This document shows, one piece after another, positions 35,531 to 42,940 of a DNA stretch of 64,000 bases. A program made the position numbers and the translations under genes. Numbering within the stretch: position 1 is the stretch's first letter; each line of letters opens with the position of its first letter. Location of the stretch: the NCBI GenBank assembly GCA_020832135.1, contig JAFIFG010000045.1:62001-126000 (forward strand). Reading direction: 5' to 3'. This DNA is from Clostridiaceae bacterium (GTDB lineage: Bacteria; Bacillota; Clostridia; Peptostreptococcales; Natronincolaceae). The notes beneath the pieces are model-generated. The model searched no databases, was not told where the DNA came from, and saw only the letters and a list, made by a program, of their open reading frames with translations.

Positions 35531-36652
35531 TTATTCCTCATCCAACCATTCAAAATTTTTAATAATAGATCGTTTCACATCTATTTTATGAGCTGCATAT
35601 AATTGTGTAGTTGTAACATTATCATGGTCTAAAAGATTTTGAACATCATATATTGAAAACCCCTGTTGTATTAAAGAAGTAGCAGCGGTAGCTCTTAATT
35701 TATGAGGACTATATCCATTGTCACGACTAGTACCTAAGGCTAAAGCAGTATATTTCTTAACCAAATTACGAATAGAACGTATAGTCATGCGTTTTTTTTG
35801 TAAGGATAAAAACAATGCATCCTTATCTATTTCATTGAGCTCTGTTAATGCCGACCTCTCCTTAACTATATAATCTTTAATAACCTTTTCGCAGGTTTTA
35901 TTAAGAGGCATTAAAACCTCCTTACCACGTTTTCTATAAATTTTAAAATCTCCTCTATTAAAATTAAATGAAGATATATTAAGTTGTTGTAATTCACTAA
36001 CCCTCAACCCATATGTAACAAATAATACAATAATAGCCTTATCTCTAAGTTTTGTTTTTTCCCAATATTTTTTTTCTCTTTCACTAAAGATATTACCATT
36101 TTCTATAATATCTAACATTACAGCTACCTCATCAATTTCAAGCTTTTTAATAGCATCAGGTTGGGGTTTAGGTAGTCTTATAGGATTAAAGCCATCCGTA
36201 ATATTCCTTTCTATAATTTCATCTCTATAAAGAAATTTAAATAAAATAGACAGAGAAGACTTCTTCCTAGCTAGAGCTCTATTATGATTTTCCATTACTT
36301 TAACATGTTGACCTTGATCCGTAGTATATCGACTGCAATAATCACCCAAAAACCTATTTATATCTTTCGCAGTTATTTTATTGAAATCATCTACTGGAAT
36401 AACGTTAGTATTGTCTACATTACTTAGGGTAGATTCATTTATTAAATATCTACAGAAAAACAATATATCTTCTAAATAAGCTAATCGGGTAGATATAGCG
36501 ACCCCACTTTTCAGATATAAGAAAAAGTCTCGCATAAAAGCAGGTAATTGATTTTCAATCTCTAAACATCTTTCAATTATCTCGTTTTCCTTTAAAACAA
36601 TATTATCAGGCCTATCAGATTTATTATGTATATGTAATTTATTCTTGGACAT
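35531..36652 (-). CDS. Tyrosine recombinase/integrase
   Basis: 373 residues. An N-terminal SAM-like core-binding domain (about 30-160) is followed by the catalytic domain with Arg in VTYGLRVSELQ, the HxxR box as HKLRATAATSL, and LLDHDNVTTTQLYAAH supplying the last His and the nucleophile Tyr. Length and motifs resemble XerS-like chromosomal recombinases more than phage integrases. ATG 36652 follows GGGGTGTG. No attachment repeats or phage genes are adjacent, and a separate canonical XerD is at 58.4 kb. The function could be dimer resolution or an unknown site-specific inversion. Confidence 0.85.
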   Translation of the reverse strand: MSKNKLHIHNKSDRPDNIVLKENEIIERCLEIENQLPAFMRDFFLYLKSGVAISTRLAYLEDILFFCRYLINESTLSNVDNTNVIPVDDFNKITAKDINRFLGDYCSRYTTDQGQHVKVMENHNRALARKKSSLSILFKFLYRDEIIERNITDGFNPIRLPKPQPDAIKKLEIDEVAVMLDIIENGNIFSEREKKYWEKTKLRDKAIIVLFVTYGLRVSELQQLNISSFNFNRGDFKIYRKRGKEVLMPLNKTCEKVIKDYIVKERSALTELNEIDKDALFLSLQKKRMTIRSIRNLVKKYTALALGTSRDNGYSPHKLRATAATSLIQQGFSIYDVQNLLDHDNVTTTQLYAAHKIDVKRSIIKNFEWLDEE

Positions 36653-36936: not shown

Positions 36937-38931
36937 GTGTTCAAATCACAAAAACAAAATTATGGCAATGATAGCCTTTCAACATTAGAGGAAAAAGATA
37001 AAGTACGCCTCCGACCTGGTGTTATATTCGGTTCGGATGGAGTAGAGGGTTGTCAGCATACTTTAACAGAAATAGTTGGAAATTCAAGAGATGAAGCTAG
37101 TGCAGGATATGGTGATTTAATAGAGGTTACACGGTTTAAAGATAAGTCAATCGAGGTAAAGGATAGGGGTAGAGGGATACCTATAGAATATAACCCTAAA
37201 GAGAATAAATATAATTGGGAAATTGTATTTACGATCCTTTATGGTGGTGGTAAATATGACAATAACTCTAGCGATAGTAATTACCAATATAGTATAGGTT
37301 TAAATGGCTTAGGTACAGCCGCAACACAATTTTCCTCTGAATATATGGATGTAACTGTTTTAAGAGATGGTCATAAGTACCAATTGCACTTTTCAAAAGG
37401 TGATAATGTAACTGATAGTGTTGAAGGGTATATAAAAAGCAAGTGTAATTATGACTATACAGGAACCTTCATTAAATGGAAACCAGATCTTGATGTGTTT
37501 AATAGTATAGATATCCCACTAGAGTTTTTTCAAAACACACTTAAAAGACAAGCTATAGTAAATAAAGGTACTACTTTTAAGCTATATGATGAAGAAAGCA
37601 ACCAATTCTTTGAGTATGTTTATGAAGATGGGATTGTGGATTACGTTAAGGAAAATAATGAAAACAAAGGCTTTACTGATATAAAATACTATGACATAGA
37701 AACAAAAGGAAAAGACAGAGAGGATAAACCTGAATATAAGCTAAAACTAGAAATGGCTTTTTGTTTTAATAATGAAAAAAATTTATTAGAGTATTACCAT
37801 AACTCTAGTTACTTAGAGTATGGTGGAGCACCAGACAAAGCCATCAAGGCTGCTTTTATATATGCTATAGATCATGCATTAAAAGAAAGAAATTTATATA
37901 AGAAAAACGAAAAAAAGATTACCTTTACTGATATAGAAGATAGTTTAATCTTGATTAGCAACTCTTTTTCTACTATTACTAGTTATGAAAATCAAACAAA
38001 AAAAGCAATTACTAATAAATTTATTCAACAGGCAATGACGGATTTTTTGAAAGAAAAATTAGAGATCTACTTTATAGAAAACAAACTAGATACCGACAAA
38101 ATATTAGAGCAAATATTAGTTAACAAACGAAGCCGTGAAAAAGCTGAAAAAACTAGGATTGATGTAAGAAAGAAATTAAGTAAAAATGTGGATAATATTT
38201 CAAATAGAGTTAAAAAGTTCGTGGACTGCAGAACAAAAGATAGGTCCAAAAGAGAACTTTTTATAGTGGAAGGGGATTCTGCTTTAGGTAGTACAAAGAT
38301 GGGTAGAGATGCAGAATTTCAAGGCATTATGCCAGTGAGAGGTAAAATACTAAACTGTTTAAAATCTGATTATGAAAAAATATTTAAGAATGATATTATT
38401 GTAGATCTACTAAAGGTTTTAGGATGTGGTGTAGAGTTACAATCAAAACACAAAGATTTAGATACTTTCGATATAGGAAAATTGAACTGGAATAAAATCA
38501 TTATCTGTACCGATGCAGATGTTGATGGTTTTCAAATTAGAACCCTTATTTTAACCATGTTATACACTTTAACTCCTTCACTCATAGAAGAAGGGTACGT
38601 ATACATAGCAGAATCTCCCCTTTATGAAATTACTGACAATAAAGAGAATACTTATTTTGCCTTTAACGAACAAGAAAAAAAACAAATTATTAAAAACATA
38701 AAGGGTAAGCATCATATTCAAAGATCTAAAGGTCTAGGAGAGAATGAGGCTGATATGATGTGGGAGACCACAATGAATCCATTAACTCGAAGACTCATAC
38801 AAGTAACACCTACCGATGCACAAGCTACTAAAGATGCTTTTGAATTATTTTTAGGTGATAACCTGCAAGGAAGGAAAGAGTATATTGCACAATATGGTCA
38901 CGAATATATTGATGTATCTGATGTAGTGTAA
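36937..38931 (+). CDS. parE: Type IIA DNA topoisomerase subunit B (ParE/GyrB-like)
   Basis: 664 residues. The GHKL ATPase has EIVGNSRDEASAG, VKDRGRGIPIEYNP and GLNGLGTAATQFSSE. The TOPRIM domain has FIVEGDSALGSTKMGRDAEFQ and ICTDADVDGFQIRTL, with QRSKGLGENEADMMWETTM near the C-terminus. Several usually invariant positions are altered: EVVDNSIDEA reads EIVGNSRDEA, and GDSAGGSAKQ reads GDSALGSTKM. GTG 36937 follows AAGGAGGAAATA. It pairs with the A subunit 24 nt downstream; being away from oriC-type genes it is probably topoisomerase IV or a third-type paralogue rather than the main gyrase. Confidence 0.85.
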   Translation: MFKSQKQNYGNDSLSTLEEKDKVRLRPGVIFGSDGVEGCQHTLTEIVGNSRDEASAGYGDLIEVTRFKDKSIEVKDRGRGIPIEYNPKENKYNWEIVFTILYGGGKYDNNSSDSNYQYSIGLNGLGTAATQFSSEYMDVTVLRDGHKYQLHFSKGDNVTDSVEGYIKSKCNYDYTGTFIKWKPDLDVFNSIDIPLEFFQNTLKRQAIVNKGTTFKLYDEESNQFFEYVYEDGIVDYVKENNENKGFTDIKYYDIETKGKDREDKPEYKLKLEMAFCFNNEKNLLEYYHNSSYLEYGGAPDKAIKAAFIYAIDHALKERNLYKKNEKKITFTDIEDSLILISNSFSTITSYENQTKKAITNKFIQQAMTDFLKEKLEIYFIENKLDTDKILEQILVNKRSREKAEKTRIDVRKKLSKNVDNISNRVKKFVDCRTKDRSKRELFIVEGDSALGSTKMGRDAEFQGIMPVRGKILNCLKSDYEKIFKNDIIVDLLKVLGCGVELQSKHKDLDTFDIGKLNWNKIIICTDADVDGFQIRTLILTMLYTLTPSLIEEGYVYIAESPLYEITDNKENTYFAFNEQEKKQIIKNIKGKHHIQRSKGLGENEADMMWETTMNPLTRRLIQVTPTDAQATKDAFELFLGDNLQGRKEYIAQYGHEYIDVSDVV

Positions 38932-38955
38932 AATTTAATAAGCAGGAGGAAAAAA

Positions 38956-41136
38956 ATGCAAACCCATACAACACAATTAAATGTTATAGATACATTAAAA
39001 ACCAACTATATGCCCTATTCAATGAGTGTTATTGTTTCTAGGGCTTTACCAGAAATAGATGGCTTTAAGCCTTCCCACAGAAAGCTTCTTTATACTATGT
39101 ATTCCATGGGGCTTTTAAAATCAAATAAAACTAAAAGTGCTAACATAGTGGGCCAAACGATGCGACTTAATCCTCATGGTGATGGGGCTATTTATGAAAC
39201 TATGGTAAGGTTAACCCGTGGAAACGAATCCCTACTACACCCATTTATAGACAGTAAAGGAAACTTTGGAAAAAACTATTCTAGGGATATGGCTTATGCT
39301 GCACCTAGATATACAGAGGCGAAGCTAGAAAAAATAAGTGAAGAAATATTTAAGGATATCAATAAAAATACGGTTGACTTTATGCCTAACTATGATAATA
39401 CCACTGTAGAGCCAATGCTATTACCTACAACTTTCCCTAACATACTAGTCAATCCTAATTTAGGAATAGCTGTTGGTATGGCCAGTAGTATTCCTAGCTT
39501 TAATCTAAGAGAGGTGTGTACTACTACAATAAAATACCTTAATGATGAAGATGTTAAGATAGAAAAACATTTAAAGGCACCAGATTTTTCTAATGGTGGA
39601 GAATTAATTTACAATATAGATGAAATAGAGAAAATCTATAGACAGGGTAGAGGAAGTTTTATACTTAGAGGAAAATACACCTACGATAAAAAGAATAATT
39701 GTATAGATATCTATGAAATTCCTTATACCACCACTATAGAAGCTATTATTGATAAAATTACTGATTTAATTAAAGAGAACAAAATAAGAGAAATAACTGA
39801 CATACGAGATGAAACTGATAAAGATGGTCTTAAGATTACTCTTGATTTAAAACGAGGAACTAATGTAGAGCAGCTTATGACAAAACTATATAAAATGACA
39901 ACACTACAGGATAATTTTAGTTGCAACTTTAATATACTTATTAACGGTGCCCCTATGGTACTAGGAGTAAAAGAAATATTAAAAGAGTGGTCTATCTTTA
40001 GAATAAGTTGCATTAAAAGACAATTAGCCTATGATATTGACAAGAAATCTAAAGAGCTTCATTTGTTAAAGGGTCTAGAAAAGATTCTATTAGATATAGA
40101 TAGAGCTGTGAAAATCGTTAAGGATACAAGGGTTGATAAAGAAGTAATACCAAATCTAATGAAGGGATTTGAAATAGACAAATTCCAGGCAGAATATATT
40201 GCCGAGATTAAGCTGCGTAATTTTAATCAAGAGTATATTTTAAAAAAGACAAAAGATATTAAAGCTTTAGAAAAGGATATTAAAAGTCTTGATATCACCT
40301 TGAATAGTGAGAAGAAAGTTAAAAATATTATTATCAAGCAATTAGAGGAAGTTGCTATAAAATATGGACAAGAAAGAAAAACCACTATAATTGAAAAGGA
40401 AGAAGTTAAAGAATTTACAGAAGAGCTTTTAATTGAGGACTATAACTTAAAGTTCTTTATAACTAGGGATAATTACATGAAGAAAATTTCGCTAGCATCC
40501 TTAAGAGGTAATAGTGAACACAAATTGAAAGATAATGATTGTATAGTACAAGAAATTGATGGGACCAATAAGGATGACATTTTATTATTTTCAAATAAAC
40601 ATACCGTATATAAGTTGAAGGCCTATGAGATCGAGGATACAAAAGCTAGTAATCTAGGTGATTTCCTCCCTAATTTACTTCAGCTCTCAGAAGATGAAAA
40701 AATAATTTTTGTAGTCTCTACAAATAACTATGAACATCATATGTTGTTTTTCTTTGAAAATGGTAAGGCTGCAAAGATTCCTTTAAATAGTTATGAAACC
40801 AAAAAGAATAGAAAACAATTAGCTAATGCTTATTGTGATGAAGAGAAACTTGTTTATATTACTCATCTTAAAGAAGATAAAGATTTAGTTGCTATTAGTA
40901 GCTTAGATAAAGTATTGGTTTTTAATACAGAACAAATAAATCCCAAATCAACTAGAAATTCAAGAGGTGTCCAAGTATTGAAGTCTAAAAAAGGTAGTAT
41001 ACTTACTTCAATTAAATCTTTAGAGGAAGTAACTTTTGATGATATTAATTACTATAAAGGGAATATTGCTACCATTGGAACTTATTTGCGAAAAGAAGAC
41101 AGGTTAGATAACTTAGAGCAATTAACACTAGTTTAA
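38956..41136 (+). CDS. parC: Type IIA DNA topoisomerase subunit A (ParC/GyrA-like)
   Basis: 726 residues. The breakage-reunion core starts MPYSMSVIVSRALPEIDGFKPSHRK; the quinolone-resistance region is around NPHGDGAIYETMVRLTR; the DNA-cleaving Tyr is in AAPRYTEAKLEK (about residue 120). The long coiled coil (about 360-480) is followed by a short, degenerate beta-pinwheel. A true GyrA-box (QRRGGRG) is absent; the nearest string is STRNSRGVQVL. The missing box argues against gyrase wrapping activity and for a topoisomerase IV-type decatenase. ATG 38956 follows AGGAGGAAAAAA. Ends the operon before a terminator. Confidence 0.87.
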   Translation: MQTHTTQLNVIDTLKTNYMPYSMSVIVSRALPEIDGFKPSHRKLLYTMYSMGLLKSNKTKSANIVGQTMRLNPHGDGAIYETMVRLTRGNESLLHPFIDSKGNFGKNYSRDMAYAAPRYTEAKLEKISEEIFKDINKNTVDFMPNYDNTTVEPMLLPTTFPNILVNPNLGIAVGMASSIPSFNLREVCTTTIKYLNDEDVKIEKHLKAPDFSNGGELIYNIDEIEKIYRQGRGSFILRGKYTYDKKNNCIDIYEIPYTTTIEAIIDKITDLIKENKIREITDIRDETDKDGLKITLDLKRGTNVEQLMTKLYKMTTLQDNFSCNFNILINGAPMVLGVKEILKEWSIFRISCIKRQLAYDIDKKSKELHLLKGLEKILLDIDRAVKIVKDTRVDKEVIPNLMKGFEIDKFQAEYIAEIKLRNFNQEYILKKTKDIKALEKDIKSLDITLNSEKKVKNIIIKQLEEVAIKYGQERKTTIIEKEEVKEFTEELLIEDYNLKFFITRDNYMKKISLASLRGNSEHKLKDNDCIVQEIDGTNKDDILLFSNKHTVYKLKAYEIEDTKASNLGDFLPNLLQLSEDEKIIFVVSTNNYEHHMLFFFENGKAAKIPLNSYETKKNRKQLANAYCDEEKLVYITHLKEDKDLVAISSLDKVLVFNTEQINPKSTRNSRGVQVLKSKKGSILTSIKSLEEVTFDDINYYKGNIATIGTYLRKEDRLDNLEQLTLV

Positions 41137-41371: not shown

Positions 41372-41423
41372 GACCTAACAAACTATTCCCTAAATATACA
41401 TTTAAAGAATAGTTTGTTAGGTC
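41372..41423. repeat. 17-bp perfect inverted repeat with T-run
   Basis: Arms 41372-41388 and 41407-41423 are perfectly complementary across 17 bp with an 18-nt AT-rich loop, and TTTTATT follows on the plus strand. No gene ends here. It could terminate a small RNA starting in 41204-41371, or be a remnant of a mobile element. The flanking 41204-41371 and 41424-41621 show no credible coding sequence. Confidence 0.55.
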
Positions 41424-41621: not shown

Positions 41622-41814
41622 TTTTTTCGACATCTCACGTGCTGATTTTGTCAAAAAATCCATGTTCACATATTGATCTATATGTCGATTTACTACCTTT
41701 CAAATGTCGCTTTATGTATAGTTTAATACGACAAATTTTTGCCATCTTGTCGTATTGCGCTTACGAGTTTTATAAATATGTCGATGGTATTATTCGACAT
41801 ATTTATAAAACTTG
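41622..41814. repeat. Hairpin array carrying Spo0A-box-like motifs
   Basis: Four consecutive hairpins: 41622-41632/41649-41658 (10 bp with one bulge), 41668-41673/41680-41685, 41725-41734/41747-41756 (10 bp) and 41764-41784/41794-41814 (21 bp, one wobble). Within them are eight TGTCGAA-like heptamers: perfect at 41626-41632 and 41793-41799 (minus strand); 6/7 at 41649, 41683, 41727, 41748 and 41779; 5/7 at 41705. TGTCGAA is the consensus 0A box for Spo0A~P. The block may be a Spo0A regulatory region for uvsE, a structured RNA, or a small palindromic repeat element. Confidence 0.5.
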
Positions 41815-41880
41815 CATTTTTATACATTTATATTTTACCTTTTGGGAAATAATCTATTTACTCTTTTGTTAATTGATAAT

Positions 41881-41898
41881 ATATATCATATGATATAT
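41881..41898. repeat. uvsE: 18-bp AT palindrome upstream of uvsE
   Basis: Perfect palindrome centred on CATATG, about 77 nt before the uvsE start and just upstream of a TATACT-rich stretch. It may be a regulator site; no convincing promoter spacing could be fixed around it. Confidence 0.35.
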
Positions 41899-41974
41899 TC
41901 ATTATACTATACTGCTATATTTTGTTTAATGACTCTCCTACTATTTGAGCATATTAATAATTGAGGTGATAAAC

Positions 41975-42940
41975 TTGAAAATTAGACTAGGTTATGTTGC
42001 TATTGCACTAAATGTAAATAAAGGCTCCCCTAATAAAACTGTAACTTTTAAGCAGTTTGATAAACTACCAGATAACGATACTAAGCTATATAAATTAAAG
42101 ACTTTAACAAAAGAAAATCTAGATACTACTAAAAGAATTTTATTCTACAATAAAGCTCATAATATTGCTTTATACCGTTTAACGTCTAAATTAGTACCCT
42201 TAGCTACACATCCAGAAGTACTAGAGTGGGATTACATTAAAGAGTTTGAAGATAGATACATAAATATAGGAGAATTTATCTTAGAGAACAACCTCAGAGC
42301 AAGTGCTCATCCTGATCATTTTACTCTAATCAATACTCCAGATGAAAAAGTATTTGAAGCTTCTTTACGTGACTTAGAATATCATACTAAAATTTTTGAG
42401 GCCATGAATCTATCTGAAAAAGATGCTAAATTAGTTCTACATGTTGGTGGCACATATGGAAATAAAAAAAAGTCAACAGAACGCTTTATTCACAATTTTA
42501 ATAATTTAGATGAAAGGTATAAAAATCGCATAATTTTAGAAAATGATGATAAATCGTTTACTGCTAAAGAAGTATTAGCTATTTGTCAACATCTATCGAT
42601 TCCAATGGTATTAGACATTCATCATCATTGGTGTAATAATAATCAGGAAAATATCAAAGACTTAATTTCTGATATCTTTAACACCTGGAATAACGAGAAA
42701 CATCCCCCAAAAATTCATGTTTCTAGCCCTAAGAATGATAAGAATATTCGTGCTCATGCAGATTATGTGGATTTCAATTTTCTAATGGACTTTATTAAAG
42801 CATCAAAAAAGTTTGATCATGATTTTGATATAATGATTGAAGCTAAGAAAAAAGATCTAGCATTGTTTGAGCTAATGAAAAATTTTAAAATAACTCCTGA
42901 TGTAAAAGTTATTAATGATGCTTCTATTGCATTAAATTAA
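41975..42940 (+). CDS. uvsE: UV DNA damage endonuclease
   Basis: UvdE family: nicks 5' to UV photoproducts in an alternative excision route. About 321 residues, TIM-barrel. Family segments are RLGYVAIALN at the start, HPDHFTLIN, LVLHVGGTYGNK with metal-binding His, ILENDDKSFTAKEVL with Glu, PMVLDIHHHWCN and IHVSSPK. Start TTG 41975 after TTGAGGTGAT; the open frame extends to 41945 without a ribosome site. In B. subtilis the orthologue (YwjD) helps spores repair UV damage, which fits an endospore former and gives interest to the Spo0A-box-like array upstream. Confidence 0.93.
   Translation: MKIRLGYVAIALNVNKGSPNKTVTFKQFDKLPDNDTKLYKLKTLTKENLDTTKRILFYNKAHNIALYRLTSKLVPLATHPEVLEWDYIKEFEDRYINIGEFILENNLRASAHPDHFTLINTPDEKVFEASLRDLEYHTKIFEAMNLSEKDAKLVLHVGGTYGNKKKSTERFIHNFNNLDERYKNRIILENDDKSFTAKEVLAICQHLSIPMVLDIHHHWCNNNQENIKDLISDIFNTWNNEKHPPKIHVSSPKNDKNIRAHADYVDFNFLMDFIKASKKFDHDFDIMIEAKKKDLALFELMKNFKITPDVKVINDASIALN

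Follow-up and report, generated by a model that had tools for sequence, protein, structure and literature searches.

In Bacillus subtilis, Spo0A, the master switch of sporulation, binds at the replication origin. The 0A-box promoters of Bacillus and Clostridioides, such as those of spo0A, sigH and abrB, carry a TGTCGAA core with A/T flanks, and Spo0A reads it with a conserved helix. The 0A box of Clostridioides difficile has the same TGTCGAA core, of which G2, C4 and G5 are needed by its Spo0A; the box lies at about −75 at spo0A and sigH, and DNA replication is among the processes regulated by Spo0A (PMC3485338). Regulator-type sites are also found on one side of the plasmid Xer recombination sites cer, with ArgR/PepA, and psi, with ArcA (PMC5357621). 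The UV-damage endonuclease UvsE (YwjD) of B. subtilis functions in spores and in cells undergoing sporulation (PMC4773242), and ywjD is listed in the sigma-G class (PMC3416734).

The locus described here lies in a window of 64 000 nucleotides (the whole stretch of DNA that was analysed), where an array of eight 0A-like boxes (41626..41799) is placed between a putative dif site and uvsE. Arrays of this kind share with 0A-box promoters the TGTCGAA core, the A/T flanks and a Spo0A with the conserved reading helix, but they differ in having two to nine boxes in both orientations over 40–230 bp, in adjoining dif and in lying 50–450 bp upstream of the gene. As at cer and psi, regulator-type sites occupy one side; in contrast, the dif is chromosomal and not on a plasmid, and the array stands at least 230 bp from the core. 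The likeness to the B. subtilis origin consists of putative Spo0A sites at a chromosome landmark and of a DnaA-box pair near the array in four relatives, although the landmark of the array is the terminus. While 0A boxes are known already, the literature searched described no dense, conserved 0A-box array next to dif and before uvsE; it contained no paper linking Spo0A with a UV endonuclease and mentioned Spo0A and dif together only incidentally.

Boxes 1 (41626–41632) and 8 (41793–41799), both on the reverse strand, are perfect copies of TGTCGAA. Six of seven positions match in boxes 2 (41649–41655, forward, TGTCAAA), 3 (41683–41689, forward, TGTCGAT), 5 (41727–41733, reverse, TGTCGTA), 6 (41748–41754, forward, TGTCGTA) and 7 (41779–41785, forward, TGTCGAT), and five of seven in box 4 (41705–41711, forward, TGTCGCT). 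The first-pass annotation had described eight copies with exactly this distribution of matches, which held for every copy in both position and quality, and its seven exact TGTCG/CGACA words in about 190 bp were counted again; they make up 7 of the 19 in the window, and other rare 5-mers reach at most four within any 190 bp. TGTCGAA by itself is not enriched in the window (3 copies against 2 expected), and the unusual feature is the clustering of the boxes, not the frequency of the word. A helical phasing of the sites near 11 bp is suggested by the jitter test on adjacent 7-mer centres (about 0.004), but it is weak without repeated spacings (0.15) and was not taken as evidence.

The host, a spore-former with a genome of 4.0 Mb, is placed in or near Natronincolaceae by its named relatives Natronincola, Anaerovirgula and Alkaliphilus. 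The uvsE gene (41975..42940, forward strand) scores 299 bits with PF03851 and 276 bits with TIGR00629, whose cut-off is 124 bits; it starts with TTG behind AGGTGA, and the same frame is already open at 41945. A second, distant uvsE-like gene of the same genome (C117:58805-59665, 38% identity) has no TGTCG sites in the 730 bp upstream.

We take CTATTCCCTAAATATACATTTAAAGAATAG (41383..41412, forward strand), a near-palindromic inverted repeat with two arms, to be the chromosomal dif site at which Xer recombination would occur. Exactly one copy, with at most two mismatches, is present in each of 20 family genomes (20/20), and the GC skew of the window changes sign at 41–42 kb. In G243 and G123, which represent two other families, the skew change is likewise marked by a homologue, here with three mismatches; in G123 the origin is mid-contig and dif is near the contig ends. 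The array stands on one side of dif, at a distance of 230–490 bp; in the host genome, dif is about 210 bp to the left of it. Across 19 genomes, the interval 150–700 bp from dif holds 48 sites on the right and 1 on the left, and in most genomes the distance from dif to the start of the array is 228–353 bp. Four genomes (L221, L232, L208 and L233, of G002, G007, G008 and G009) have, 60–150 bp before the array, two inverted DnaA-like boxes, TTATCCACA, with a spacing of 18 bp, of which one is perfect and the other differs at one position.

A gene for an Xer-type tyrosine recombinase (35531..36652, reverse strand) was recognised by PF00589 and by XerS/XerD models with scores below the cut-offs, and in several relatives such a gene directly adjoins dif. 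Between the two, the window contains a gyrB-like and gyrA-like pair (36937–41136), scoring under the curated cut-offs of the GyrB/ParE and GyrA/ParC models, which looks inserted because xer and dif are adjacent in those relatives. A lexA-like gene beside the Xer-type gene, left of dif or of uvsE, forms a recurrent terminus neighbourhood (L223, L225, L226, L055 and L058), recognised by eye from the sequence without a model search.

A search of the order gave uvsE orthologues in 57 genomes, and the upstream regions of 55 were inspected. Of the 12 family genomes with this type of uvsE, 11 carry sites, as do four from a second family, with two to seven per region; in the uvsE upstream regions of a third family none were found, except on one contig of odd composition. 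In the resulting 15 regions, from as many genomes and 11 genera, TGTCGAA is the most enriched 7-mer, with 32 occurrences against 0.67 expected. The sites have A/T-rich flanks and balanced orientations (27 to 29), and many read TGTCGWW instead of TGTCGAA. In the UvsE tree the carriers all group in a single, well supported clade, of which two members lack sites. Among close relatives the promoter-proximal sequence can be aligned well, the block only poorly. Which gene stands behind the array varies between genera; this, together with the turnover of site positions and orientations, fits an array bound by a transcription factor. Control of that gene, in the window the topoisomerase pair, was dismissed because it changes between genomes; the xer gene next to dif was dismissed as a target because xer is unlinked in many array-bearing genomes.

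Spo0A is the putative binder of the array, to judge from the motif and the protein. The host encodes it about 24 kb from uvsE, just beyond the window and beside spoIVB (TIGR02875, 433 bits), and it is present in 13 of the 13 family genomes searched. Its DNA-binding domain agrees almost letter for letter with the B. subtilis-type chains 1lq1 and 1fc3 through the NTT-SRVERAIRHAIEVAW segment. The spo0A promoters of 16 genomes, that of the host included, have one TGTCGAA each at a similar place, a positive control that the word is in use in these genomes. Few TGTCGAA boxes were seen at the spoIIAA promoters.

Based on these results, we propose a clade-specific 0A-box array to which Spo0A~P binds and through which it controls uvsE, a reading to which we give about an even chance. 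At the onset of sporulation, Spo0A~P would load on the array between dif and uvsE and would alter the activity of the uvsE promoter, by activation or repression, so that the UV-repair endonuclease would be tied to the decision to sporulate. We infer uvsE as the target, and likewise any sign of the regulation. The proposal is supported by TGTCGAA as the top 7-mer at uvsE together with the 11 of 12 family genomes and the single UvsE clade, by the changing gene behind the array, and by the 1lq1-like domain of the host Spo0A together with the TGTCGAA boxes of the 16 spo0A promoters. It is also supported by the TGTCGAA core of the C. difficile 0A box (PMC3485338) and by genomes in which uvsE away from dif keeps its sites, five in G001 and two in G123, and it fits the role of YwjD in B. 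subtilis sporulation (PMC4773242). Against it count the distance of 150–450 bp from the array to the start codon, the many imperfect boxes such as TGTCGTA and TGTCGAT, and a spore-forming sister family whose uvsE is without sites. If Spo0A does control uvsE, UV repair would in this one clade be coupled to the initial step of sporulation, unlike the sigma-G-class ywjD.

The distribution of the array with and without uvsE bears on this proposal directly. Wherever uvsE lies beside dif, the array is present (12 of the 12 genomes examined); for uvsE genes far from dif this is usually, not always, so. In G003 (L222), nine TGTCG sites, six of them perfect 0A boxes, are found at dif, and uvsE, just right of the array, is reduced to a start codon and 63 residues before a stop. 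Likewise, six sites at dif in G019 and three in G013 have no intact uvsE nearby, and in G002 four sites are at dif while uvsE, 9.6 kb off, is box-free. These four genomes count against control of uvsE, and because the array is kept at dif in several genomes that lost the gene, such control is not the only reading based on Spo0A. The first-pass annotation had found control of uvsE by Spo0A~P attractive, and its Spo0A boxes upstream of uvsE are supported by phylogenetic footprinting and by the spo0A-promoter control; it had missed that the array also adjoins dif at the replication terminus and persists in several genomes without the gene. As a whole, the distribution agrees with control of uvsE, relics having stayed after loss of the gene, and it would also allow a role at the terminus that uvsE has joined.

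In this second reading, Spo0A~P would assemble beside dif and shape the terminus during sporulation, with uvsE a mere neighbour, which we regard as a serious alternative, though of rather low probability. The complex might bridge sister termini or assist Xer recombination as an accessory complex, like ArcA at psi and ArgR/PepA at cer. In its favour are the one-sidedness and the narrow range of array starts relative to dif, the retention without intact uvsE, the boxed dif and box-free uvsE of G002, and the precedent of regulator-bound accessory sequences at Xer sites (PMC5357621). Moreover, the cohesion of termini in sporulating B. subtilis is unexplained, protein bridging being one proposed model, and in spo0A mutants the sister chromosomes, and with them the termini, separate (PMC7515245). 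However, the array is almost lost at dif in two genera without uvsE (g4 and g10, with zero to two sites) and absent at the dif of G243, and the dif of G123, 124 kb from uvsE, has a single site and a remnant of the second conserved element described below. In addition, the boxes of uvsE in G001 and G123 are away from dif, and the retention in G003 may just mean that uvsE was lost recently. Stated as a direct DNA-structural role, in which a Spo0A nucleoprotein array beside dif would hold or mark sister termini or gate Xer recombination on commitment to sporulation, the idea is more doubtful still. We favour control of uvsE over a terminus role and rate it about twice as likely. An array acting at the terminus would offer a sequence-defined candidate, in one 190-bp block, to account for the unexplained cohesion of termini during sporulation (PMC7515245), and under either reading dif and its flanking module would form a compact terminus landmark in these clostridia.

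Next in order, and likewise unlikely, some other regulator might read TGTCGAA-like sites, in which case the match to the 0A box would be coincidental. The frequent TGTCGWW sites, the scarcity of such boxes at spoIIAA promoters and a number and spacing of sites unlike those of single-box Spo0A promoters would agree with this, but the top word of the unbiased count is exactly TGTCGAA, the same as at the spo0A promoters of these genomes.

The first-pass annotation had also seen four successive hairpins in the block and had considered a structured RNA or a palindromic mobile repeat an equally good explanation. The two right-hand hairpins are solid (41725–41756 and 41766–41812, the latter a perfect inverted repeat of 19 bp that includes the last two boxes), but the two on the left are weaker, and the predicted minimum-energy fold does not contain both. 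Compared with shuffled sequences, folding of the region is much stronger on either strand (z −5.4 and −5.0), as is that of the array alone (z −6.4 and −6.2), mainly owing to the inverted repeat and the hairpin at 41725–41756. The corresponding blocks of 14 relatives have z values mostly from about +0.5 to −2.7, with two at −3.0 and −3.5. As these blocks mostly fold little better than shuffles, the strong structure, like the 19-bp repeat, is peculiar to the host's own copy, which argues against a conserved RNA. A search of the host genome with the block, where the mobile repeat would have shown many dispersed copies, gave meaningful E-values only for the block itself and its own inverted repeat, and a single-copy block is not a dispersed repeat. 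No Rfam match in the window reached the gathering thresholds, and the sub-threshold microRNA matches are implausible and were set aside as chance hairpins. A structured RNA or small palindromic mobile element, suggested by the strong folding of the host copy on both strands and by its perfect repeat, is thus very improbable given the single copy in the host genome, the shuffle-like folding in most relatives, the Rfam result and the order, position and orientation of motifs that are not kept across relatives.

Between the array and uvsE, a second conserved element of 22 bp, TGATAAYNNNTATCANNTGATA (41874..41895, forward strand), resembles a Fur box. It is the sole copy with zero mismatches in the host genome and was found in most relatives, including several that lack uvsE, and behaves much like the array; in G004–G006 it is a perfect 7-1-7 Fur box. 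A sigma-F/G-type promoter at GGGYATATTA before uvsE was rejected, as no −35 element was seen by eye, and no promoter could be placed in the uvsE upstream region.

Genome-wide box statistics were based on pattern searches. A search for dense clusters in the host genome and eight relatives recovered the uvsE array from almost every one. The other cluster shared between genomes, a TGTCG cluster common to four of them, was discarded: in the host genome it is a purine riboswitch upstream of a permease-like gene (C97; L187:1441-1542), which mimics such a cluster and is usable as a false-positive control. Two tandem TTCGACA boxes 11 bp apart, also in the host genome (C50:18570-18587; L184:1971-1988), lie between sigK and a YvyF-like gene of a flagellar region and represent a candidate Spo0A target.
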